Of a stretch of 64,000 nucleotides of DNA, positions 2,800 to 46,168 are shown in pieces; position 1 is the stretch's first letter, and each line of letters opens with the position of its first letter. The translations under genes were made by a program, and so were the position numbers. The stretch lies in contig NZ_QXJC01000005.1 of NCBI RefSeq assembly GCF_003570885.1, forward strand, positions 1 to 64,000. The letters run 5' to 3'. Under the pieces are notes generated by a model. It had not been told where the DNA came from. It searched no databases and saw only the letters and a program-made list of their open reading frames with translations. The DNA comes from Simplicispira hankyongi. GTDB lineage: Bacteria > Pseudomonadota > Gammaproteobacteria > Burkholderiales > Burkholderiaceae_C.

Positions 2800-3213
2800 A
2801 TGACCGACAAATACGCCTCCACCGTTTCCCTCGCCGGCCGCATCCTGCTGGCGCTGATGTTCATTCCCGCCGGTTTCGGCAAGTTGACCAACATTGGCGG
2901 CACGGCGGGCTACATTGCCAGCGGCGGTTTGCCCTTCCCCAGCCTGCTCGCAGTGCTGGCCGGCGCGCTGGAGCTGTTTGGTGGCCTGGCGCTCGTCATC
3001 GGTTTCAAGGTGCGCTGGGTGGGCCTGGCGATGGCCTTGTTCACGCTGGTTGCCAGCATGGTGTTCCACCCCTTCTGGTCGGTGCCCGAAGCACAGCAGA
3101 TGGTGACCAAGCTCCTGTTCATGAAGAACATCTCCGTCGTTGGCGGCATGCTGCTGATCTCTGCCCTGGGCGCTGGCGCGCTCAGCGTGGACGAGCGCAA
3201 CCGCCAGCGCTGA
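2800..3213 (+). CDS. DoxX family membrane protein
   Basis: 137 residues, the usual size for the DoxX family of small four-helix inner-membrane proteins. The N-terminal helix carries the family pattern GRILLALMFIPAGFGKL. Three more hydrophobic segments follow (about 48-67, 72-90, 108-128) with a short basic tail. DoxX proteins are linked to oxidoreductase or thiol stress functions, but the biochemical role is unsettled. It lies 87 bases before wrbA in the same direction, which suggests a small redox-related unit. The start lacks a strong ribosome site, but no better in-frame ATG exists. Confidence 0.85.
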   Translation: MTDKYASTVSLAGRILLALMFIPAGFGKLTNIGGTAGYIASGGLPFPSLLAVLAGALELFGGLALVIGFKVRWVGLAMALFTLVASMVFHPFWSVPEAQQMVTKLLFMKNISVVGGMLLISALGAGALSVDERNRQR

Positions 3214-12109: not shown

Positions 12110-12235
12110 TGCTTGAAAACGGTTGCACGGTGTATATTGGAATTAATCTGTAGCAATTTCGTCATGTGAGATCGTTGCGCGACGCGCAGCGTGTTTTTGC
12201 GCCGCAGCGCAGGGGTATTGCACGCCGAGGCATCC

Positions 12236-15200
12236 ATGAGCGCTTCCACCGCCCGTTCTCATCCGGCACCTATTGCGACCGCACAGGACGCAATGGCGGA
12301 CGAGGCTTTGAAAGCGCTGGCACAGGACGCCCTGCACGAAGCGCGCATGCACGCCGTGCTGGTGGACATTCAACTGCAGCTCTCGTCGCCCACGCTCAGC
12401 GACGGGGAGTTGCAGCAGCGCGCCATCCAGGCGGCGCTCGATGCCACGAATGGCGAAGGAGCCTGTTTCGAACTGCTCGAAGGGGACGGACTGCGCTGCG
12501 TGGCCGCTGCGGGCAGGCTGGTGCACCGTACAGGCCAATGGCTTCCCTTGGCGGACAGCCCCTCATGGACAACACTCGCACTCGGGCAGTCACTGCGCTG
12601 CAGCGACACGCAGCAGGCTGGCTGGCCATTGGCGCCGGGCCCGCCCGAGACACCGATGCGCTCAGCGCTGGAGGTGCCGCTGCGGCGCGATGGCACGGTG
12701 GTCGGCGCACTCAAGGTATGGTCCAGCACGCTGGGCGCCTTTGCCGAACGCGACCTGGCGCACCTGGAAATCCTCAGTGAATCTGTTGGTGCCATGCTCA
12801 AGCTGCGCCACGTGGCAGCGCAGTTGCTGGTCTCACAAAAGCAGTACGAAGGCCTGTTCCAGACACACCCGCAGCCGATGTGGGTGTTTGCGCTGGATGA
12901 CCGCCTGACGCTGCTGGCCGTCAACGAAGCCATGGTCGAGGTCTATGGCTACAGCCGCGAGGAATTGCTGGGCATGGTTCTGCCCGACCTCTGGCCGCCC
13001 GGCACGCACGAAATACATCGGCAAGCGCTGGCAAGCGTACACGGCGCCAGAAACAGCGGCTTTATCCTGCAGCATCGGTGCAAGGACGGCCGCTTGATCG
13101 ACGTGGAAATTACCTCCCGCGCGACGCAATTCAATGGCATTCCCGCGCGCCAATCCATGGCCATTGACATCACCGAGCGCCTGACGGCGGAGCGTGAGAT
13201 TGCCCGCATGGCACGGGCACGCCATCTGCTGAGCGCCTGCAACGAAGCCATCGTGCGCGCCAGCTCTGAAGCCGAGTTGCTGGAAGCGATCTGCCGCATC
13301 ACCGTAAAGCTGGGCGGCTACCGCATGACCTGGGTCGGCCTGGCACGCGATGACGCGCAAAAATCCATTGCCTGTGTGGCCAGCGCCGGGGCCGACCACG
13401 GCTACCTTGAGGGCCTGTCGCTGTCCTGGGACGAAGAGAGCCCAAACGGTCATGGCCCGGCAGCCGAAACGGTACGCACCGGACGCACCGTCATCGTGCG
13501 CGACGTGCGAGAGGCGACGGGATACGCTGGCCTGGCGCATCGGCTCCATCCACGTGGCTTTCACGGGATGGTGTGCCTGCCGCTCAAGGATGGGGAGCAC
13601 ACCTTTGGCGTGCTGTACCTCTACGCCTCCGAAGTGCTCGAAATCAGCCAGCATGAAAGCGAGTTGCTGGGCGAGCTGGCCAACGATCTGGCCTTTGGCA
13701 TGCAGAGCCTGCGCGCGCGCCAGGAGCAGCAGCGCATGCAGGCGTCGGTACTCAAAGTGGCCGCCTCGGTATCGGCAGCGACCGGGACGGCTTTCTTTGT
13801 GCACCTGGTCCGCAACATGATCGAAGCCCTGGGAGCCGAATCGGGCTGCCTGGGACGTTTTGTTCCCAGCGCCCACGGAGCGCCCGAGAGCCTGGTCACT
13901 CTGGCACTGGTGGTCAACGGGGAGCTGGCACCCAACGCCGAATACCTGCTCAGCGGCACGCCCAGCGAGCATTTGGCGACCGAGGCCCAGTTTTGCGTGA
14001 CGCACGACCTGAGGGCGCAGTTTCCAACGTCTGTCGTGGTGGGCCAAACAGCTGCAGAGGCCTACGCCGGCCAGCAACTGTGCGACAGCACCGGAACGGT
14101 CACCGGCGTGCTGTTCGTGCTGTTTCGCCAACCGCTGCAAAACCCGGCCTTTGTGCAATCGACGCTGCAAATTTTTGCCTCGCGCGCTTCGGCGGAGATC
14201 GAACGCCTGGCATCCGACGCACACATCCGGCGCCAGGCATCGCTGCTCGACCAGGCGCGCGACGCGATCATCGTGCGCGACCTGGCACACCGCATCACTT
14301 TCTGGAACCTGGGGGCGGAGCGGCTCTATGGCTGGTCGCAGGAACAGGCTGTGGGCCAGCCCGTGGACAGGTTGTTGCACCCGGACCACGGCAGCTTTGA
14401 GCGCGCCACCCAAGCAGTTCTGGCCCATGGCGAATGGTCGGGGGAAATGGTGCAGCGCCACCGCGATGGCCACTCCCTTGAGACCGAAGGGCACTGGACC
14501 CTGGTCAAGGGCGAAGACGGATCGGCGAGCAGCATCCTCGCCATCAACACCGACATCCGCGAGCGCAAGGCCACCGAGCGCGAAATTGCACGCCTGGCCT
14601 TCTACGACGCACTGACCGGTCTGCCCAACCGCATGCTGCTGATGGACCGCGCGCGCCATGCGCTGGCCAACGCCGCGCGGGTGGACGAAGGCGGGGCGCT
14701 GCTGTTCATCGACCTGGACAACTTCAAGACGCTCAACGACACCCTCGGGCACGACAAGGGCGATTTGCTGCTGCAACAGGTTGCGCGCCGCCTGGAAACC
14801 TGTGTACGCGGCAGCGACACCGTCGCGCGCCTGGGCGGCGACGAATTTGTCGTCATGCTCGAAGCGCTCAGCAGCGATCCCAGTGCGCTGGCGCTTGACG
14901 CGCGCGCAGCGGCAGAAAAAATTCTGGCTACCCTGTCGCAGCCCTACCAGCTTGACGGCTACCACTACCGCACCACGCCGAGTATCGGCATCGCGCCCTT
15001 CGGGCAGGGCCATGCGACGGTGGGCGACCTGCTCAAGCAGGCCGACCTGGCCATGTACCAGGCCAAGAGTGGCGGGCGCAACACCCTGCGCTTCTACGAC
15101 CCGCACATGCAGGCCGTGGTCAGCGCGCGCGCCGAACTTGAATCGGATATGCGCACCGCCTTGGCACAGGGTGAATTCCTCCTGCACTACCAGCCTCAGG

Positions 15201-15910
15201 TGCGCCACGATGGCCGCTGGCTGGGCGTGGAGGCACTGGCGCGCTGGCAGCATCCGCTGCGCGGCATGGTGCCGCCAGCAGAGTTCATTCCCGTGGCGGA
15301 GGAAACCGGCCTCATCCTGACCCTGGGACGCTGGGTTCTGCACACGGCCTGCCAGGTGCTTGCGCGCTGGCAGGCCGAACCGGCGCTGCGCCACCTGACC
15401 ATGGCGGTGAATGTCAGTTCGCGGCAGTTTCGGAACGTCAACTTTGTCGACGATGTCTCGCGCATGCTGGCGGTCACCGGGGCACCCGCGAGGCGCCTCA
15501 AACTCGAATTGACCGAAAGCGTGCTGGTGGACGACGTGGAAGCCACCATCGCCACCATGGAAGCGCTGCGCACCGTCGGCGTTGGCTTCTCGCTGGACGA
15601 TTTCGGCACCGGCTACTCCAGTCTGAGCTACTTGAAGCGCATGCCCCTACACCAGCTCAAGATCGACCAAAGCTTTGTCCGCGATCTGCTGAGCGACCCC
15701 AACGACGCAGCCATCGTGGACACCATCGTCGCGCTCAGTGCCACACTGGGGCTGGATGTGATCGCGGAAGGGGTAGAGACCCTGGAACAGCGCGAAATGC
15801 TGCTCCAGGCCGGCTGCATGGCCTTCCAGGGCTATCTGTTCAGCCGCCCCCTGGACGATAAGGCTTTGTTTGAGCTGCTGCACAGCCCCGTTGCGCAAAA
15901 ACCCCGGTAA
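12236..15910 (+). CDS. GAF/PAS sensor diguanylate cyclase-phosphodiesterase
   Basis: 1224 residues from the ATG at 12236 (a GTG 45 bases upstream is possible). Domains in order: GAF-like (about 30-190), PAS (about 200-315, FQTHPQPMWVFALDD), GAF (about 335-490), GAF-like (about 505-650), PAS (about 660-780), GGDEF (about 790-950) and EAL (about 965-1215). The cyclase motif GGDEF at 867-871 is intact, as is the EAL triad at 999-1001. The other phosphodiesterase residues (AVNVSSRQF, DDFGTGYSS, KIDQSF, AEGVET) are also present. Either or both c-di-GMP activities may work. There are no membrane segments, so it is a cytoplasmic sensor with unknown ligands. It ends just before the DnaA-box region. 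Confidence 0.93.
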   Translation: MSASTARSHPAPIATAQDAMADEALKALAQDALHEARMHAVLVDIQLQLSSPTLSDGELQQRAIQAALDATNGEGACFELLEGDGLRCVAAAGRLVHRTGQWLPLADSPSWTTLALGQSLRCSDTQQAGWPLAPGPPETPMRSALEVPLRRDGTVVGALKVWSSTLGAFAERDLAHLEILSESVGAMLKLRHVAAQLLVSQKQYEGLFQTHPQPMWVFALDDRLTLLAVNEAMVEVYGYSREELLGMVLPDLWPPGTHEIHRQALASVHGARNSGFILQHRCKDGRLIDVEITSRATQFNGIPARQSMAIDITERLTAEREIARMARARHLLSACNEAIVRASSEAELLEAICRITVKLGGYRMTWVGLARDDAQKSIACVASAGADHGYLEGLSLSWDEESPNGHGPAAETVRTGRTVIVRDVREATGYAGLAHRLHPRGFHGMVCLPLKDGEHTFGVLYLYASEVLEISQHESELLGELANDLAFGMQSLRARQEQQRMQASVLKVAASVSAATGTAFFVHLVRNMIEALGAESGCLGRFVPSAHGAPESLVTLALVVNGELAPNAEYLLSGTPSEHLATEAQFCVTHDLRAQFPTSVVVGQTAAEAYAGQQLCDSTGTVTGVLFVLFRQPLQNPAFVQSTLQIFASRASAEIERLASDAHIRRQASLLDQARDAIIVRDLAHRITFWNLGAERLYGWSQEQAVGQPVDRLLHPDHGSFERATQAVLAHGEWSGEMVQRHRDGHSLETEGHWTLVKGEDGSASSILAINTDIRERKATEREIARLAFYDALTGLPNRMLLMDRARHALANAARVDEGGALLFIDLDNFKTLNDTLGHDKGDLLLQQVARRLETCVRGSDTVARLGGDEFVVMLEALSSDPSALALDARAAAEKILATLSQPYQLDGYHYRTTPSIGIAPFGQGHATVGDLLKQADLAMYQAKSGGRNTLRFYDPHMQAVVSARAELESDMRTALAQGEFLLHYQPQVRHDGRWLGVEALARWQHPLRGMVPPAEFIPVAEETGLILTLGRWVLHTACQVLARWQAEPALRHLTMAVNVSSRQFRNVNFVDDVSRMLAVTGAPARRLKLELTESVLVDDVEATIATMEALRTVGVGFSLDDFGTGYSSLSYLKRMPLHQLKIDQSFVRDLLSDPNDAAIVDTIVALSATLGLDVIAEGVETLEQREMLLQAGCMAFQGYLFSRPLDDKALFELLHSPVAQKPR

Positions 15911-15964
15911 TCAGGACGCAGGCCGGCTGCTCGGAGCGCACGGGCCCTTGGGATAGTTTTCTAT

Positions 15965-16548
15965 CTTTCTTCTATTTCATTGGTAGATAGTAGATAGAGG
16001 ACCGCCGTTTCGGTGGATAAGTGTGCTTTGTGCTTGCCCATCAGATACTTGGACAGGGCCCAGCGCTGTGCAGAAGCCCCGCGGATGGCGCCAGCGCATT
16101 GGGGGCAGTTTTCCGATTTGGCCCCAATCTGTGGATAAACGGTCGGTTGCCAGATTTTTATCCACAGGTTTTTCGCCGCACAACGGTTGGTGCGTCGTGC
16201 AGCGCCAAGCTTTTTGCGTCTTTGCGGGCGCCTTTATGGCGTGCCGCGCAAGACAAACCACTTTTTCAAACCGCCCCAAAGAACAGCCACCGCATTGCAC
16301 GGGGACGAAAACGGGCGCGTATTGTCTGTTCTTCTATGTCTCTCTATTCAAATAGTAGTAGTAGTAGGCAGCGGCCGAATCTGTGGACAAGGCCATTAGG
16401 GTGTTTTCGATCAACCACTTACAGACATCACAGCCCTGTGCGCGGAGCCCTGTTGCGCTGCCCCAAAAAACTGAACAACTTTTCAGAACCGCCACCGTCT
16501 GTGGATAACTGCCAGGATATGCGCCTTTGTCACACAGGTTTATCCACA
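15965..16548 (+). other. Probable chromosomal replication origin (oriC): DnaA boxes and TAG-trio modules
   Basis: Four perfect DnaA boxes (TTATCCACA or its complement) lie at 16130-16138, 16158-16166, 16500-16508 and 16540-16548. Two one-mismatch boxes lie at 16012-16020 (GGTGGATAA) and 16382-16390 (TGTGGACAA). Each of the two weaker boxes is preceded by the same layout: an AT-rich tract, a run of TAG triplets (15984-15997 and five TAGs at 16353-16367), a 14-base spacer, then the box. That is the DnaA-trio unwinding layout described in bacterial origins. No convincing gene occupies 15911-16567. dnaA and rpmH, the usual neighbours, are absent from the window. Confidence 0.75.
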
Positions 16549-16567
16549 GGCTGGAGAGATGGGCCCG

Positions 16568-17167
16568 TCAAAAATGCAGGGTGTAGCGCAGTTGAACGAA
16601 GTTCGCGCCGGGGTTGGGCTTCTTGATGCCGGCGTTCGAGACATGCTCCAGGCGCAGTTGCAGCGCGTGCTGGCGCTGTTCGCCCAGTTCCACGCCGACG
16701 CCCAGGTGGCTGGCGAAATTGAAGCGGGTGCTGAATTTCCGCTCCGGCGTGACGAAGCGGGGGTTGGCCAGCGTGGCACCGACACCGGCATCGACAAACC
16801 AGCGCGAGTGCCCGTCGTCTGGAGTGAAGCGAAAGCTGGGGGTAACGCCCAGGACCGTGGTGCCAAAGTCACCGCCTATGCCGCGGGCTGACCAGCGGCT
16901 GGCGTAGAAGTCCCAGTAACCCCGTACCTCGGCGCCCCAGAGGCTGCGGCGCCAGTCTTGCCAATCCAGGGTGGCGCCCAGCGTCCAGGCGTCGATGTGG
17001 TGGGATGTTTTGGCGGTCTGCAGGTACAGGCCCCAGCGGGGTGCGGCGGGTGCATCCGTTGCGCCGGCTGCTTGTGCGGCTGCGGGCGTGCAACCCAAAA
17101 GGGACAAGAGGGCGACGAAACCGAAAAGGGCCCTTGCAGGCCCCTGGTGGTTGGAGGTGTAAGGCAT
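16568..17167 (-). CDS. pagL: Outer-membrane lipid A 3-O-deacylase (PagL family)
   Basis: 199 residues with a signal peptide ending near PAAAQA (about 32) and alternating beta-barrel strands ending in LRYTLHF, the aromatic C-terminus of outer-membrane barrels. The family block LEHVSNAGIKKPNPG holds the catalytic His175 and Ser177. PagL removes the 3-position acyl chain from lipid A, which alters outer-membrane permeability and immune detection. In the Pseudomonas aeruginosa enzyme a Glu lies 14 residues after the His; here that position is Asn189 if no gap is needed. The gene starts 190 bases from the end of the next one. Confidence 0.85.
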   Translation of the reverse strand: MPYTSNHQGPARALFGFVALLSLLGCTPAAAQAAGATDAPAAPRWGLYLQTAKTSHHIDAWTLGATLDWQDWRRSLWGAEVRGYWDFYASRWSARGIGGDFGTTVLGVTPSFRFTPDDGHSRWFVDAGVGATLANPRFVTPERKFSTRFNFASHLGVGVELGEQRQHALQLRLEHVSNAGIKKPNPGANFVQLRYTLHF

Positions 17168-17357: not shown

Positions 17358-17918
17358 TCAGCCGGGTTGGCCGCCACCTTGGCGCATGGGGCCATGGCCA
17401 TGGCGCCCTTGCATGTGCTGTTGGCGGTTGCCGCCCATGCGCTCACCCATGTGTTCGCTCATGCGATCAAAGGTCTTTTGCTGCTCGGGCTGCAGTTGGG
17501 CGTAGAAGGTTTTGATGGCGTCCGCGCGCGCGTCCATGGCGGCGTCGCGTTGTGCACGCAGGGCGCGCATGCGGTCAATGCGTTCGGGCGTGGTCAGCTT
17601 TTGCATCGCTTGGCGGTCCAGGCGGGCGAAGTCGCTGCGCGGCTGCATGGCCTGGGTGAAGCTGGTCCAGGCGCCTTCCTGGGCCGGGGTGATGGCCAGC
17701 TTCGCCTTGAGCTGGGCCTGGCGCTCAGCATGTTTTTGCTGCCATTGGTCGCGCTGGGCTTGCCGATTGGCCCGGTAATCGCTCCGCTGGTGCATCTGGA
17801 CCGCGGGTGCGTCGCTGGCGCCGGCGGGTGCGGCTGGGCTGGTTTGTGCGAGGACGGGCAGGGCCAGCGCGGCGCAGGCGGCGGCGGCAGCAAGGCGGCG
17901 GGTGAACGAGAAGGTCAT
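17358..17918 (-). CDS. Periplasmic Spy/CpxP-like protein (LTxxQ family)
   Basis: 186 residues. The signal peptide ends at LPVLAQ (about 25). The mature part is almost all charged helix rich in Gln and Arg, with two LTxxQ-like positions: ITPAQEGAWTSF near 77 and LQPEQQKTF near 143. These are typical of Spy/CpxP periplasmic chaperones that respond to envelope stress or metals. The C-terminal 30 residues are rich in His, Met and Gly (HMQGRHGHGPM) and could bind copper or zinc; that is inference. A CCCAGGA/TCCTGGG hairpin at about 17233-17252 lies downstream on this strand but lacks a long T-run. Confidence 0.75.
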   Translation of the reverse strand: MTFSFTRRLAAAAACAALALPVLAQTSPAAPAGASDAPAVQMHQRSDYRANRQAQRDQWQQKHAERQAQLKAKLAITPAQEGAWTSFTQAMQPRSDFARLDRQAMQKLTTPERIDRMRALRAQRDAAMDARADAIKTFYAQLQPEQQKTFDRMSEHMGERMGGNRQQHMQGRHGHGPMRQGGGQPG

Positions 17919-18072: not shown

Positions 18073-18127
18073 GAAAATGGCACCTAGCGCTTATTGCTAT
18101 TGCCTAAGCAGCTATCAATTTTGATAA
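18073..18127 (-). repeat. Dispersed palindrome, copy 4
   Basis: ATGGCACCTAGCGCTT, then a divergent centre, then CTAAGCAGCTATC and ATTTTGATA. The right arm is shortened, so the palindrome is imperfect. It occupies the middle of the 316-base gap between the Spy-like gene and rdgC. The rest of that gap has CGCGACAAT near 18153, a possible -10 for rdgC. Confidence 0.65.
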
Positions 18128-18234
18128 ATGGCGGCTGGCTGCAGATCCGTCGCGCGCGACAATCCTCCTTTTCCCTTTCTCGGCGCGCCGTGCGTTGCTG
18201 GCGCGCCGCTGCCAAGTCACCAAAGGATTCCCTC

Positions 18235-19233
18235 TTGTTCAAGAACCTGATCGTCTACCGTATCGCGCCCGGCTGGCAATGCGATCTCACCCAGTTGGAA
18301 GAAGCGCTGGCGCGCGCGCCGTTCCTGGAATGCGGCGCCACCCAAGAGCGTTCGGTTGGCTGGGTGCCGCCGCGCGGCGAGGCACATGGCCTGCTGGCCG
18401 AATCGGTGGCGGGCCAGTGGATTTTGCGTTTCATGGCCGAGGCCAAGGTAGTGCCCGGCTCCGTCGTCGCCCGCCGGGTCAAGGAGAAAGCCGATCGCAT
18501 CGAGCAGGAAACCGGCCGCAAGCCCGGCAAGAAGGAAAGCAAGGAGCTCAAGGATGAAGCCATGCTTGACCTGCTGCCCATGGCGTTCACCAAGCAAGGC
18601 TCGATGTGGGTGTGGATCGACCAGGCCGCCCGCACCCTGGTGCTCGACACCGGCAGCCAGGCGCGCGCCGATGAGGTGGTCAGCCTGCTGACCGAGGCGC
18701 TGCCCGGCTTTGCGCTGGCCCTGGTGCACACCCACACCAGCCCGCAAGCCGCCATGGCGCACTGGCTGGCCACGCAGGAGCCGCCCGCAGGTTTCAGTGT
18801 GGACCGTGAATGCGAACTCAAGTCGGCGGACGAGGCCAAGGCCGTGGTGCGCTACGCCCGCCACCCGCTCGACATCGAGGAAGTGCAGGCCCATATCGCC
18901 GCTGGCAAGCTGCCGACGCGCCTGGCGCTGACCTGGGACGAGCGCGTGTCCTTCGTGCTGACCGAGGGCCTGCAGATCAAGAAACTGGCGTTTCTGGACA
19001 CGGTGTTCGAGGACAAGGCGGCCGACGATGGCGGCTTTGACACCGATGTGGCCATTGCCACTGGCGAAGTCTCGCGCCTGCTGCCCGACCTGATCGAGGC
19101 GCTGGGCGGCGAGGCGCAGCCGGGCGTGGCGGCACCCGTTTCGGCCCCCATTTCGGCATCTGCTGCGTCCGGCAGCGTGACCGGCCCGGCGACGGCGCCC
19201 GTGGATACCGACCCCGACAACGCCCCGTTCTGA
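18235..19233 (+). CDS. rdgC: Recombination-associated protein RdgC
   Basis: 332 residues from a TTG start at 18235, chosen because the next residues (FKNLIVYRI) match the RdgC N-terminus and AAGGA lies upstream. The body has the family blocks SVGWVPPRG, DEAMLDLLPMAF, MWVWID and LTWDERVSFVLTEG, with MATGELA-like IATGEVSRLLPDLIEALGGEA near the end. RdgC is a ring-shaped dimer that coats double-stranded DNA without sequence preference and restrains RecA. Compared with E. coli RdgC (303) it has an extra Ala/Pro/Ser tail of about 30 residues that looks disordered. Confidence 0.93.
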   Translation: MFKNLIVYRIAPGWQCDLTQLEEALARAPFLECGATQERSVGWVPPRGEAHGLLAESVAGQWILRFMAEAKVVPGSVVARRVKEKADRIEQETGRKPGKKESKELKDEAMLDLLPMAFTKQGSMWVWIDQAARTLVLDTGSQARADEVVSLLTEALPGFALALVHTHTSPQAAMAHWLATQEPPAGFSVDRECELKSADEAKAVVRYARHPLDIEEVQAHIAAGKLPTRLALTWDERVSFVLTEGLQIKKLAFLDTVFEDKAADDGGFDTDVAIATGEVSRLLPDLIEALGGEAQPGVAAPVSAPISASAASGSVTGPATAPVDTDPDNAPF

Positions 19234-40948: not shown

Positions 40949-40964
40949 TGTTTCACGTGGAACA
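40949..40964 (-). promoter_or_regulatory. parS site (ParB-binding)
   Basis: TGTTCCACGTGAAACA on the minus strand, an exact fit to the chromosomal parS consensus TGTTNCACGTGAAACA. It lies in the gap between the FMN reductase gene and mnmG, about 2.9 kb from parA and 4.3 kb from parB. Confidence 0.85.
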
Positions 40965-41104
40965 GCGTCGCCGGGATGGGTCTGATCACCTGCTGCGCAC
41001 GTCCGACGCGGCAAAGTGGGAAAATTGCGGGTTAGCCCGTACCGGCATCCGCACCGCACGTGCTGTTTTTTGACCCAGGGGCACCAGAGCCCCGGAGCGT
41101 TTCC

Positions 41105-43081
41105 ATGTTGTACCCCCAGGAATTTGATGTCATTGTGGTCGGCGGCGGCCACGCCGGAACCGAGGCCGCGCTTGCCGCCGCGCGCATGGGCGCGCGCACG
41201 CTGCTGCTCACACACAACATCGAGACGCTGGGGCAGATGAGCTGCAACCCCTCCATCGGCGGCATCGGCAAGGGCCACCTGGTGAAAGAGGTGGATGCGC
41301 TGGGCGGCGCCATGGCGCTGGCCACGGACGAGTCCGGCATTCAGTTTCGCATTCTCAACTCCAGCAAAGGCCCTGCCGTGCGCGCCACCCGCGCACAGGC
41401 CGACCGTGTGCTCTACAAGGCGGCGATTCGCCGCATGATCGAGAACCAGCCCAATCTCTGGCTGTTCCAGCAGGCGGTGGACGATTTGATGGTGGAGGGC
41501 GACCGCGTAGTGGGCGCCGTGACGCAAGTGGGGGTGAAGTTCCGCGGCCGCACGGTGGTGCTGACGGCAGGCACTTTTCTGGATGGCAAGATCCATGTGG
41601 GCCTGAACAGCTATGCCGCCGGGCGCGCGGGCGACCCGCCGGCCACCAGCCTCTCAAGCCGGCTCAAGGAGCTGCAACTGCCGCAGGCGCGTTTGAAGAC
41701 CGGTACGCCACCGCGCATTGACGGGCGCAGCATCGACTTTTCCCGCTGCGAGGAGCAGCCGGGCGACGGCATGCCGGGTGGTGTGAACGAGGGCGCCGTG
41801 CCGGTGTTCAGTTTCATGGCCCATGCCCATGGGGGCGCTGCCATGCACCCGCGCCAGATGCCGTGCTGGATCACGCACACCAACCTGCGCACGCACGAGA
41901 TCATCCGCTCGGGGTTCGACCGCAGCCCCATGTTCACCGGCAAGATCGAGGGCGTTGGCCCGCGCTATTGCCCCAGTGTGGAAGACAAGATCAACCGTTT
42001 TGCGAGCAAGGACAGCCACCAGATTTTTCTCGAACCCGAAGGTTTGAGCACGCACGAGTTCTACCCCAACGGCATTTCGACTTCGCTGCCTTTTGACATT
42101 CAACTGGCCTTGGTGCGCAGCATGGAGGGCCTGGAAAACGCGCACATCCTGCGGCCCGGCTATGCGATCGAATACGACTACTTCGACCCGCGCTCTCTCA
42201 AGAGCAGCTTCGAGACGCGGCAGATTGCCGGCCTGTACTTTGCCGGCCAGATCAACGGCACGACCGGCTACGAAGAGGCCGCCGCGCAAGGGCTGTTCGC
42301 TGGGATCAACGCCGCCCTGGCGTGCCGGGGTGAAGCGCCCTGGCTGCCTGGGCGCGATGTGGCTTACCTGGGTGTGCTGGTGGACGACCTTATCACGCAA
42401 GGCGTGACCGAGCCCTACCGCATGTTCACCAGCCGCGCCGAGTTCCGCCTGCAACTGCGCGAAGACAACGCCGACATGCGGCTCACCGAAGTGGGGCGCC
42501 AGATGGGTTTGGTGGACGACGCACGCTGGGAGTCCTTCAGCCGCAAACGCGAAGCGGTGGTGCGCGAAACCCAGCGCCTAAAGGACACCTGGGTCAATCC
42601 GCGCAACCTGGCTGCCGGCGAATCGGAGCGGGTGCTGGGCAAGGCCATCGAGCATGAGTACAACTTGTTTGAGCTGCTGCGCCGGCCGGGGGTGTCGCAC
42701 CAGGAGTTGACCAGTATGGATGGTGGGCGCTTCGCCAGTGCCGATGTTTCACTTGAAACCTTGGGCGATCTGTTTGACCCCGTGCGCGAGCAGGTGGAGA
42801 TTGCGGCCAAGTATTCGGGCTACATCGATCGGCAAAAGGGCGATGTGGAGCGCGCTTCCCATTTCGAGCAGCTGCGCCTGCCGGATGCCATCGACTACCT
42901 ACAGGTGACGGCGCTGAGCATCGAGGCGCGGCAGAAATTGGCTGCGCACCGCCCCGAAACCTTGGGCCAAGCCTCGCGCATTCCCGGCATTACACCGGCC
43001 AGCATTTCGCTGCTGCTGGTGCATTTGAAAAAGGGCGGCCTCAAGGAGTACATCGCTGTGGATGCCGGAGCCTCTGCGTGA
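41105..43081 (+). CDS. mnmG: tRNA uridine 5-carboxymethylaminomethyl modification enzyme MnmG
   Basis: 658 residues, full length. FAD-binding GxGxxG in [23 protein letters not shown], then the conserved [24 protein letters not shown]. The second family block [26 protein letters not shown] has the active-site Cys, and [16 protein letters not shown] closes the FAD site. With MnmE it modifies U34 of tRNAs using FAD, folate and glycine or ammonium. The ATG at 41105 gives the family start [14 protein letters not shown]. The stop overlaps rsmG as GTGA, indicating translational coupling. Confidence 0.96.
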
Positions 43082-43764
43082 CCGGCGCGTTGCGCCAAAA
43101 CCTGGAGGCGGGTGTGCGGGCGCTCGGCCTGTCGTTGACCGAGACGCAAGTGGACCAATTGTTGGCGTTTCAGGCGCTGCTGCAAAAGTGGAACCGGGTC
43201 TACAACCTGACGGCGGTGCGCGAGCCTGGCGAAATGTTGACGCACCACTTGCTCGACAGTCTGGCGGCTGTGCCGGCGCTCCAGCGCGAGCTTGCGGGGC
43301 AGAGCAGAGAAGCGCCACGTCTTCTGGATGTGGGTTCGGGCGGCGGCTTGCCAGGCGTGGTGTTCGCCATCTGTTTGCCGCAGCTTGCGGTCTACTGCGT
43401 GGACACCGTGGCCAAGAAGGCCGCGTTCATTCAGCAGGCGGCGGCTGCCTTGCGGCTGCCGGGCCTGCACGGCATTCATGCTCGGGTCGAATCGCTCGTC
43501 GGGCCGTTTGATGTGGTCAGCAGCCGGGCCTTTGCCTCGCTCAAGGATTTCACGCAGTGGTCGCATGCGGCGCTCGCGCCCCAGGGCGTCTGGCTGGCCA
43601 TGAAAGGCAAGCTCCCGCAAGATGAACTGGCGGCGCTGCCTGCTGGCGTGGAGGTGTTTCACGTGGAACCTCTTATCGTTCCGGGGCTGGACGCCGAGCG
43701 CTGCATTGTCTGGATGCGTCCGCACAGCCATCCGAATGGGGCCGCAGCAGCGGCGCTCGCGTAA
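43078..43764 (+). CDS. rsmG: 16S rRNA (guanine-527-N7)-methyltransferase RsmG
   Basis: 228 residues with a GTG start inside the mnmG stop. Motifs: [10 protein letters not shown] near 40, HLLDSL near 57, the SAM site [17 protein letters not shown] near 81 and [11 protein letters not shown] near 145. Methylates G527 of 16S rRNA, a site linked to streptomycin sensitivity. A parS-like sequence (43655-43670) is embedded in the coding region around VFHVEP, so ParB may load within this gene. Confidence 0.95.
43655..43670 (-). promoter_or_regulatory. Near-consensus parS site inside rsmG
   Basis: GGTTCCACGTGAAACA on the minus strand, one mismatch from the parS consensus and with the full CACGTG core. 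It is about 180 bases before parA. Being inside a coding frame is common for parS. Confidence 0.7.
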
Positions 43765-43795: not shown

Positions 43796-43852
43796 ATGTC
43801 GGCTGTTGTGAATTTTCAAGTCATCTCTGCGTTACCCGCAGGAGTTCGCTGA
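43796..43852 (+). CDS. Possible 18-codon leader ORF coupled to parA
   Basis: MSAVVNFQVISALPAGVR, an ATG with GGAG eight bases upstream. Its TGA overlaps the parA ATG as TGATG. Such an arrangement could couple parA translation to ribosome passage through the leader. It matches no family that I recognise and may be chance. Confidence 0.3.
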   Translation: MSAVVNFQVISALPAGVR

Positions 43853-44655
43853 TGGCCCGCATTTTCTGCATCGCCAACCAGAAGGGCGGGGTTGGCAAAA
43901 CCACCACCTCGGTCAACCTGGCCGCAGGCCTGGCGCGCATCGGCCAGCGCGTGCTGCTGGTGGACCTGGACCCGCAGGGCAATGCCACCATGGGTTCGGG
44001 TGTGGACAAGCGCAAGCTGGCGCTCACGGTGTACGACGTGCTGCTGGAATCGGCCTCGGTGGGCGAGGCAGCGGTACTGGCGGAGAAATGCGGCTACCAG
44101 GTGTTGGGCGCCAACCGTGAGCTGGCGGGCGCTGAAGTCGAGCTGGTGGACGTTGAGCGGCGCGAAAAACGCCTCAAGACAGCGTTGGCTGAAATTGATG
44201 CCGACTACGATTTCGTGCTCATCGATTGCCCGCCCTCGCTCTCCATGCTCACCCTCAACGGCCTGTGCAGCGCGCATGGCGTCATCGTGCCCATGCAATG
44301 CGAATACTTCGCACTCGAAGGCCTGACCGATCTGGTCAACACCATCAAGCAGGTGCACGCCAACCTCAACCCGGACCTGCAGATCATTGGCCTGCTGCGC
44401 GTCATGTTCGACCCGCGCATCACGCTGCAAAGCCAGGTGAGCGAGCAATTGCGCGGGCACTTTGGCGACAAGGTGTTCGACACGGTAATCCCGCGCAATG
44501 TGCGCCTTGCCGAGGCGCCCAGCTACGGCTTGCCCGGCGTGGTGTTCGACCCTGCCGCCAAGGGCAGCCTGGCCTTCGTGGAGTTCGCCCGGGAGATGGT
44601 CGAGCGCGTACAGCGCCTGGCGCCGGCCACCAAGGAAAAAATAGCAGCAAAATAG
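43852..44655 (+). CDS. parA: Chromosome partitioning ATPase ParA (Soj)
   Basis: 267 residues. Deviant Walker A motif KGGVGKTTT at about 11-19, Walker A' DLDPQGNATMG near 40, and Walker B FVLIDCPPSLSMLT near 122. No N-terminal DNA-binding domain, so it is the chromosomal (type Ia short) form. CAGGAG precedes the start. It binds nucleoid DNA as an ATP dimer and moves ParB-parS complexes away from one another. Unlike the usual parA-parB pair, a hydrolase gene and a palindrome separate it from parB. The last codons (KEKIAAK) run into that palindrome. Confidence 0.95.
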   Translation: MARIFCIANQKGGVGKTTTSVNLAAGLARIGQRVLLVDLDPQGNATMGSGVDKRKLALTVYDVLLESASVGEAAVLAEKCGYQVLGANRELAGAEVELVDVERREKRLKTALAEIDADYDFVLIDCPPSLSMLTLNGLCSAHGVIVPMQCEYFALEGLTDLVNTIKQVHANLNPDLQIIGLLRVMFDPRITLQSQVSEQLRGHFGDKVFDTVIPRNVRLAEAPSYGLPGVVFDPAAKGSLAFVEFAREMVERVQRLAPATKEKIAAK

Positions 44656-44705: not shown

Positions 44706-45245
44706 ATGTCGCCCGATCACGTTCTCATTCTTCCGGGCTGGCAAGGCTCCGGCGCCGGCCATTGGCAGACCCTGTGGGAGGCGGCGCACGGCTACTGGCG
44801 GGTTGAGCAGCACGACTGGATGCACCCGCTGCGCGGCGACTGGAGCGCGCGGCTCGATGAGGTGGTGGTGGACGCCGACGGGCCGGTGGTGCTGGTCGCG
44901 CACAGCCTGGGCTGCATCCTGACCGCCTGGTGGGCTGCACATTCGCAGCACACGCACCAGGTGCGTGGCGCGCTGCTGGTCGCGCCTGGCGACGTCGAAC
45001 AGCCCGATGTCGCCGCGCAACTGCCCGGCTGGGCGCCCATCGCCCGCCAGCTGCTGCCGTTTCCCGCCGTGCTCGTGGGTAGCCGCAACGACCCGTACTG
45101 CCGCTTTGAACGTGCCCAGGCATTGGCGCAGGCTTGGGGGGCGCGGTTTGTCGATCTGGGCGAGCGCGGCCACCTCAACGCGGAATCCGGCCTCGGCGCG
45201 TGGCCTGAAGGCCTGTCGCTGCTGCATGCATTGATGAAAGATTGA
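44706..45245 (+). CDS. RBBP9/YdeN family alpha/beta hydrolase
   Basis: 179 residues, the compact serine hydrolase fold of RBBP9/YdeN. Start block VLILPGWQGSGAGHWQTLWE contains the oxyanion loop. Ser nucleophile in LVAHSLGC near 64, Asp in VGSRNDPYC near 125 and His in GERGHLNAESG near 155 complete the triad. Substrate unknown. Its place between parA and parB is unusual, so it may simply be carried along with the segregation genes or share their promoter. Confidence 0.9.
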   Translation: MSPDHVLILPGWQGSGAGHWQTLWEAAHGYWRVEQHDWMHPLRGDWSARLDEVVVDADGPVVLVAHSLGCILTAWWAAHSQHTHQVRGALLVAPGDVEQPDVAAQLPGWAPIARQLLPFPAVLVGSRNDPYCRFERAQALAQAWGARFVDLGERGHLNAESGLGAWPEGLSLLHALMKD

Positions 45246-45253
45246 ACACCACC

Positions 45254-46168
45254 ATGGTCACCAAGAAACCCAAAGGCCTGGGCCGCGGCCTCGAAGCGCT
45301 GCTGGGCCCCAAAGTCGCAGAACGCGCCAACGCCGAACCGGTGGAGGGCGCGCCATCGAGCTTGCCACTCACGGCGCTGGTGCCCGGCATGTACCAGCCG
45401 CGCACCCGGATGGATGAGGGCGCGCTGTACGAGCTGGCCGAATCCATCAAGGCGCAGGGCATCATGCAGCCGGTGCTGGTGCGGCGCCTGAGTGCGGGCG
45501 AAAACGCCGGCCAGTACGAAATCATCGCCGGCGAGCGGCGTTTCCGCGCCGCCCACCTCGCGGGCCTGGACAGCATTCCCGTGCTGGTGCGGGACGTCCC
45601 CGACGAGGCCGCCGCGGCCATGGCACTCATCGAGAACATCCAGCGCGAAGACCTGAACCCGCTGGAAGAGGCGCAAGGCCTCTCGCGCCTGGTCAAGGAG
45701 TTTGGCCTGACGCATGAGCAGGCGGCGCAGGCGGTAGGGCGCTCGCGCTCGGCCGCGTCCAACCTGCTGCGCCTCTTGAACCTGGCCGAGCCGGTGCAGA
45801 CCATGCTGATGGCCGGCGACATCGACATGGGCCATGCCAGGGCGCTGCTCTCGCTCGACCGCGCGGCGCAGATCACGGCCGGCAACCAGATCGCGGCCAA
45901 GAAGCTTTCGGTGCGCGAGGCCGAATCGCTGGTGCGGCGCATCGGCGCCGATTTCAACCTGGTGCCGCAAAAGCCCAAAAAAGAGAAATCGCGCGACATC
46001 AAGCGCGTGGAAGACGAGTTGTCCGACCTGCTGACGGCCGAGGTGGAGGTGCGCGTCAAGAAGCGCGTCAAGCGCGCCGGCCGTGTAGAGGAAATGGGCG
46101 AGCTGGCGATCTCCTTTGGCTCGCTCGACGCGCTCAACGGCCTGATCGAGCGTTTGCGCGGGGACTGA
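45254..46168 (+). CDS. parB: Chromosome partitioning protein ParB (Spo0J)
   Basis: 304 residues. N-terminal KKPKGLGRGLEALLG is the ParA-contacting peptide. The ParB/Srx CTP-binding region holds LPLTALVPGMYQPRT, GIMQPVLVRR and YEIIAGERRFRAA. The helix-turn-helix follows (LTHEQAAQAVGRSRSAASNLLRLL) and a C-terminal dimerisation domain. Binds parS and spreads as a CTP-driven clamp. The ATG at 45254 is used; a TTG four codons upstream is possible. Confidence 0.95.
   Translation: MVTKKPKGLGRGLEALLGPKVAERANAEPVEGAPSSLPLTALVPGMYQPRTRMDEGALYELAESIKAQGIMQPVLVRRLSAGENAGQYEIIAGERRFRAAHLAGLDSIPVLVRDVPDEAAAAMALIENIQREDLNPLEEAQGLSRLVKEFGLTHEQAAQAVGRSRSAASNLLRLLNLAEPVQTMLMAGDIDMGHARALLSLDRAAQITAGNQIAAKKLSVREAESLVRRIGADFNLVPQKPKKEKSRDIKRVEDELSDLLTAEVEVRVKKRVKRAGRVEEMGELAISFGSLDALNGLIERLRGD

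Follow-up and report, generated by a model that had tools for sequence, protein, structure and literature searches.

In the 64,000-nt stretch of DNA analysed here (the window), the locus near 16 kb that is rich in DnaA boxes is very likely the chromosomal replication origin, oriC. As read from the sequence, it would lie away from dnaA, the initiator gene that origins often adjoin (by about 40 kb on an inferred contig join), between dnaA and gidAB-parAB, and it comprises two head-to-tail units 372 bp apart (Table 1). The initial annotation had read it as an oriC separated from dnaA in this lineage, and this reading is supported by the conservation of the unit among relatives, by its uniqueness in its own genome, by the GC skew of a congener and by the gidAB-parAB genes with their parS sites. 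That annotation also allowed for a second DnaA-binding locus; the lack of any further match to the unit model in the genome speaks against this.

Layout of the locus

Six DnaA boxes, four perfect and two with one mismatch, had been described in about 540 bases, and all were found again at the same positions. The perfect boxes (TTATCCACA) start at 16130 and 16500 on the minus strand and at 16158 and 16540 on the plus strand; the one-mismatch boxes, both on the minus strand, start at 16012 (GGTGGATAA) and 16382 (TGTGGACAA). The motif TTATNCACA matched 4 times in the 64-kb window against 0.31 expected, a count reached in none of 100 shuffles, and matched 19 times in the 3.71 Mb of the whole genome, 4 of these matches being inside 419 bp of the locus. 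Such a density makes a chance cluster very unlikely, and chance was rejected as its origin.

Elsewhere in the same genome (G000), contig C17 carries a pair of perfect boxes that point the same way, spaced 29 nt apart (71089-71126, L013); this pair is possibly a DnaA-titrating or regulatory site.

The order of AT-rich tract, TAG triplets, spacer and DnaA box was re-read in the sequence in both copies, with spacers of exactly 14 nt. The last TAG ends at 15997 in unit 1 and at 16367 in unit 2, and only 0.06% and 0.15% of the 40-bp segments of the window are as AT-rich as the two tracts. The locus thus holds a cluster of boxes beyond chance and an AT-rich element adjoining the boxes, as expected of an oriC.

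The TAG triplets had been claimed for both modules. In unit 2 this was borne out by six NAN trios in register, five of them clean TAG, followed by the 14-nt spacer; the run of unit 1 (TAGATAGTAGATAG) proved irregular, with a maximum of two consecutive trios in register. The basal unwinding system (BUS) of Bacillus subtilis and many bacteria consists of DnaA-trios and a DnaA box and calls for at least three trios (3'-NAN-5') within 16 nt of the box (PMC8287927). Unit 2 has six at 14 nt and unit 1 at most two.

The common direction and the spacing of the two modules were as first described, and the description had to be extended: the repeat is longer than the trio module, each copy being about 215 bp with the trio module as its left end, and the modules are thus parts of two complete origin units, the trios being irregular in the upstream one. 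The two IHF-like sites were called by resemblance to the IHF consensus.

Table 1. Features of the locus and its surroundings in the window. Both units were among the sequences used to build the model against which they are scored.
Feature	Position	Strand	Evidence
oriC unit 1 (upstream copy), whole	15962..16176	+	R1 match 15963-16175, 98.6 bits, E 4.7e-28; profile HMM 116.9 bits
Unit 1 AT tract and irregular TAG trios (putative unwinding element)	15958..15997	+	72.5% AT vs 33.8% in the window
Unit 1 spacer, 14 nt	15998..16011	+	sequence
Unit 1 box 1 (R1-like), one mismatch	16012..16020	-	sequence
Unit 1 IHF-like site ATCAGATACTTG, one mismatch	16040..16051	+	sequence
Unit 1 box 2, perfect, 118 nt past box 1	16130..16138	-	sequence
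Unit 1 box 3, perfect, inverted (R4-like)	16158..16166	+	sequence
oriC unit 2 (downstream copy), whole	16334..16550	+	R1 match 16335-16549, 115.9 bits, E 2.2e-33; profile HMM 144.7 bits
Unit 2 AT tract and five TAG trios	16331..16367	+	67.6% AT
Unit 2 spacer, 14 nt	16368..16381	+	sequence
Unit 2 box 1 (R1-like), one mismatch	16382..16390	-	sequence
Unit 2 IHF-like site ATCAACCACTTA	16410..16421	+	sequence
Unit 2 box 2, perfect, 118 nt past box 1	16500..16508	-	sequence
Unit 2 box 3, perfect, inverted	16540..16548	+	sequence
GAF-PAS-GGDEF-EAL gene, left flank	12191..15910	+	Pfam
pagL, right flank	16568..17167	-	Pfam PF09411
LTXXQ (Spy/CpxP-like) gene	17358..17918	-	Pfam PF07813
rdgC	18094..19233	+	Pfam PF04381
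parS, perfect match to searched pattern	40949..40964	.	pattern search
mnmG (gidA)	41060..43081	+	Pfam
rsmG (gidB)	43078..43764	+	Pfam
parS, one mismatch	43655..43670	.	pattern search
parA	43852..44655	+	Pfam
parB	45242..46168	+	Pfam

Conservation of the unit and position of the probable origin

When positions 15900-16600 of the window were used as a DNA query, matches were obtained in 16 of 200 family genomes, the own genome included, and 14 of the 17 non-self rows fell on the trio-spacer-box core. R1, a model of the unit based on sequence alone, was derived from 23 copies, those of the window and its first matches. In the alignment of these 23 copies the AT tract is followed by the trios, the spacer, box 1, a T run, sometimes an IHF-like site, weak boxes and box 2, then by a GGTTGTGCCAG-like stretch and one or two inverted boxes. 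The invariant columns lie in the trios, box 1, box 2 and the inverted boxes.

R1 matched 380 of the 399 family genomes sampled (E <= 0.01), counts that include the own genome and the source genomes of the 23 units, which match by construction; among good-quality genomes the figure was 344 of 350. The unit is thus conserved among relatives, and this distribution makes it very probably the chromosomal origin of the family. Six good-quality genomes gave no R1 match (G029, G094, G110, G118, G252 and G367), for which a diverged origin, an assembly gap or loss in filtering are candidate reasons. In a class-wide run 29 of 114 genomes had a match, 2 in the family and 27 outside it; the best match outside had an E value of 3.5e-14 and most others were far weaker.

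The spacing within the unit was examined in a named set of 118 stretches plus the window, which held 158 full units, of which 155 were measured and 3 dropped. The distance from box 1 to box 2 was 118 nt in 69 units, 119 nt in 81 and 120 nt in 5, so that all 155 lay within 118-120 nt, the scan that drew the stretches having itself admitted 113-123 nt. From the last TAG to box 1 the distance was 14 nt (74 units), 15 (13), 17 (39), 18 (28) or 20 (1), within the 11-20 nt admitted by the same scan. A strict trio rule (at least three in register within 16 nt) was passed by 109 of the 155 units and failed by 46, and strict trios were discarded as a defining part of the unit. The IHF-like site, with a full match in 39 units, a partial one in 23 and none in 93, was discarded likewise.

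The trio-box-box pattern occurred without a match to the unit HMM in 3 of the 118 stretches: L276 and L302, both from Saccharibacillus, and L315, from a Verrucomicrobia MAG. Both Saccharibacillus stretches hold dnaA and dnaN, which in L276 sit either side of the pattern match; similar spacing may thus recur far away.

The genome of the window comprises 3.71 Mb in 19 contigs, the window lying on contig C15. As first noted, the locus is flanked by a GGDEF-EAL protein gene and pagL and not by rpmH and dnaA, and the Pfam assignments (GAF-PAS-GGDEF-EAL, PagL, LTXXQ, RdgC) agree. The search for the nearest dnaA, suggested with the initial annotation, identified a sole copy near 148 kb of another contig, C14, with dnaN on one side across a 90-bp gap, a divergent gene read by eye as rpmH on the other, and one perfect DnaA box upstream. 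R1 gave two matches in this genome, both at the window locus, and detected no unit at dnaA or elsewhere; the chromosome thus shows a single origin locus with two units.

The classical rpmH-dnaA-dnaN order on C14, with its perfect box, is what would be expected if the true oriC were at dnaA and the window held a secondary DnaA-binding locus. That R1 places no unit there speaks against this arrangement, as do the two lines of evidence below, and we regard it as very improbable.

The check by GC skew that had been proposed was run, as GC3 skew, on the complete genome of a congener (G294), and the switch fell on a tandem pair and not on dnaA, 53 kb away. G294 carries the same pair, with units 467 bp apart, at 3139.8-3140.5 kb. 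The change-point, corrected for gene strand, was located at 3138-3140 kb with a dLL of 10.94, vs 4.65 at dnaA; only 1 of 300 permutations was as high as the change-point observed. Of the spaced samples elsewhere, those at 3.6, 0.2, 0.7 and 1.1 Mb were positive, whereas those at 1.5, 2.0, 2.5 and 2.8 Mb were negative, the pattern that an origin near 3.1 Mb would give.

For the own contigs on the presumed C14-C15 join, dLL was 7.24 at the units and 1.75 at dnaA, the best point (8.33) lying 3.6 kb left of the join and 20 kb left of the units. The skew thus disfavours dnaA in G294 and in the joined own contigs, where it agrees with an origin at the units only to within 20 kb. In the unbroken stretches of G004, G230 and G072 the change-point had a best dLL of at most 3.1 and nothing usable was obtained; in G230 the unit (0.19) is no better supported than dnaA (0.50). 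Nor was a clear switch seen in spaced samples of G162 and G026.

An independent view was given by parS. In the window, gidA-gidB-parA-parB and two parS sites occupy 40.9-46.2 kb, about 24-30 kb from the units, the distance to parS being about 24 kb. In all 8 genomes computed parS stays near the unit, 15-51 kb from the nearest one and 52-325 kb from dnaA; the distances are 24 vs 325 kb in G230 and 21 vs 285 kb in G072. The reversed pattern, used as a control of the parS search, gave 0 or 1 match per strand. The parS distances favour the unit over dnaA as the origin. An origin at dnaA was rejected on the R1, skew and parS evidence.

The window belongs to a 271-kb contig of a 19-contig assembly, which leaves room for a plasmid or chromid origin instead of that of the main chromosome. 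We consider this the least probable reading, and a plasmid origin was rejected: the contig carries gidAB-parAB and rdgC, parts of C15 and of the dnaA contig are collinear with a single region of G294, whose assembly is one contig of 3.97 Mb, and R1 detects no unit elsewhere in the genome. The collinear parts are C14:121-155 kb and C15:6-57 kb, matching 3059-3102 and 3110-3182 kb of G294; no such match in the G294 stretch was obtained for the final 15.6 kb of C14 or for most of the initial 6 kb of C15. If C14 and C15 abut, dnaA would be about 40 kb from the units. Positions 1-762 of the window match two overlapping places in G294 (3052.6-3053.9 kb) away from the syntenic spot, and are probably a repeat that broke the assembly.

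Displacement, number and possible activity of the units

Distances were taken in 46 genomes, namely all 43 single-contig genomes of the R1 search and three nearly finished ones that had come up before (G225, G026 and G162). A unit lies within 1 kb of dnaA in 13 of them and farther away in 33, Simplicispira included. In the 33 displaced genomes the nearest unit is 16.7-301 kb from dnaA (median 81 kb), apart from G121 at roughly 5 or 13 kb; this value and that of G257, roughly 230 kb, depend on rounded lengths. Where a named stretch held a unit together with dnaA and dnaN, the unit was between the two genes in 12 of 12 cases, and a unit shared the same 8 kb with rdgC or pagL in 34 named stretches; this sorting records co-occurrence, not adjacency, the dnaA-dnaN stretches having then been checked for adjacency. 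G272, with one unit between dnaA and dnaN and another 29 kb away, is possibly an intermediate state.

On a DnaA/DnaN tree of 47 rows (23 displaced, 23 dnaA-side, 1 both), built by a quick method, displaced origins cluster, with 5 changes against a shuffled mean of 16, and the own genus falls inside a 15-row displaced clade (SH-aLRT 95). The starred branches force only 1 change for the displaced state, so neither the number nor the direction of the moves is settled. We infer that the dnaA-side position is ancestral; the unit would once have been at dnaA and then moved.

Two or three units were present in 23 of the 46 genomes (two in 19, three in 4) and a single one in the other 23, after three weak matches (two in G003, one in G162; E 8.6e-4 to 0.009) had been dropped. 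Multiple units occurred in 21 of the 33 displaced genomes vs 2 of the 13 dnaA-side ones, counts uncorrected for relatedness. All units had the same direction in 19 of the 23 multi-unit genomes, the mixed ones being G272, G311, G370 and G162, and in the named set 44 of the 118 stretches held two units, in the same direction in 42. Two same-direction units are carried by, among others, Acidovorax, Paracidovorax, Simplicispira, Curvibacter, Comamonas, Delftia and Hydrogenophaga; shared neighbours suggest that the organism of the window is a relative of Acidovorax.

Some arrangements differ from the tandem layout. In G162, G311 and G370 (genus g40) two units face opposite directions 20-46 kb apart on one contig, making these genomes candidates for truly separate origins. 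Three full units were found on one contig in G003, G004, G120 and G301, those of G004 spanning 29 kb. In G174 (L141) and L268 tandem units lie inside the dnaA-dnaN gap itself, which indicates that duplication can occur without displacement.

Of 52 same-direction full pairs, the 41 starting 300-900 nt apart were compared as tight pairs, some of which may be one genome present in two collections. The mean HMM score was 132.8 for the upstream and 129.6 for the downstream copies, the upstream one being lower in 14 pairs, and the copies of a pair were just 60% identical. Like scores at this identity argue that both copies are kept. Identity was 0.601 between copies within a genome vs 0.568 and 0.567 between same-position copies of different genomes; the copies within a genome being slightly more alike, a single old duplication and repeated duplication or exchange between copies are equally possible.

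Published BUS work, together with what is known of E. coli, suggests how the unit may act. DnaA would bind the R1-like box adjoining the spacer; further anchoring would come from the second box, 118 nt away, and from the inverted R4-like boxes that follow it, and an IHF-like bend may assist in some copies. The DnaA filament would extend over the spacer onto the TAG trios and open the AT tract, where DnaB would be loaded, replication then proceeding in both directions. Both units may be competent to initiate.

There is nonetheless close to an even chance that only one of them, probably unit 2 (16334-16550), initiates, and that the other is a relic or a DnaA-titrating or reactivating site like datA or DARS. 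In E. coli, datA titrates DnaA and DARS reactivates it, and sites of this kind hold DnaA boxes without an unwinding element. Unit 1 has the lower R1 score (98.6 vs 115.9 bits), its box 1 is mismatched and no more than two of its trios are in register, the trio check having raised our estimate of this possibility slightly; the upstream unit also scores lower in all three genomes of the genus (the window, G225 and G294), and half of the 46 genomes have one unit. These points are to be weighed against the tight pairs, in which the upstream copy is lower in only 14 of 41, and against the 118-120 nt spacing, which is found in all 155 units, second copies included. In addition, unit 1, although its trios are irregular, retains an AT tract as unit 2 does, which titration should not need. 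Judged by sequence, the active unwinding site in this genome is more likely to be in unit 2, and unit 1 may be an auxiliary or second site.

For the family at large we propose, tentatively and at somewhat less than an even chance, that natural chromosomes throughout a large group of betaproteobacteria have two oriC units, or three in some species, each competent by itself, kept by selection and mostly displaced from dnaA. Species in which the units are separated by 10-46 kb may have true multi-origin chromosomes.

Comparison with known origins and implications

The E. coli oriC has the order DUE, R1, IHF and, further on, R4, and is located away from dnaA. The unit resembles it in its AT-rich element, R1-like box, weak boxes and inverted R4-like box, in the IHF-like site of some copies, in its similar size and in its position away from dnaA. 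The window differs from it by the TAG trios with their 14-nt spacer, by the duplication, and by its flanks, GGDEF-EAL, pagL and rdgC, with gidA about 25 kb off.

The likeness to the BUS is clearest in unit 2, where three or more trios (mostly 3'-GAT-5') lie no more than 16 nt from the box, with an AT tract beyond; the window departs from it by holding two same-direction copies at one locus away from dnaA, and unit 1 by falling short of three trios (PMC8287927). In the bipartite origins of Helicobacter pylori and B. subtilis, two DnaA-box clusters flank dnaA and form one origin region, one of them with the unwinding element (PMC8235120). The window shares the two clusters, but here an AT tract and TAGs accompany each of them, and they are not split by dnaA, which is far off on another contig.

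Two oriC-like regions on one chromosome have also been listed in DoriC as putative double origins, in four cases chosen by gene neighbours, boxes and skew (Gao 2015, PMC4403523); unlike those cases, a homologous unit is here repeated across many related genera. Strains of Vibrio cholerae with fused chromosomes carry two origins on one natural chromosome, reportedly one of oriC type and one of plasmid type joined by fusion (PMC6284228), whereas the window holds copies of one oriC unit.

Precedents thus exist for the BUS, for origin parts like those of E. coli and for origins away from dnaA. In titles and abstract openings no report of tandem or rdgC-side origins in the family was found; DoriC tables, subscription journals or supplements may nevertheless list displaced positions. 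Within that scope, the new element is a homologous oriC that is doubled and maintained throughout a group of betaproteobacteria.

One origin per bacterial chromosome is the usual view, and a doubled layout common to many relatives makes this rule testable in nature. Relatives with one, two or three units, at dnaA, away from it or, in one genome, both, form a natural series in which one can ask if additional oriC units initiate replication, act together or serve to titrate DnaA. The same series bears on whether control of initiation needs an oriC adjoining dnaA, and it suggests that equating dnaA with the origin would mislead in part of the family.
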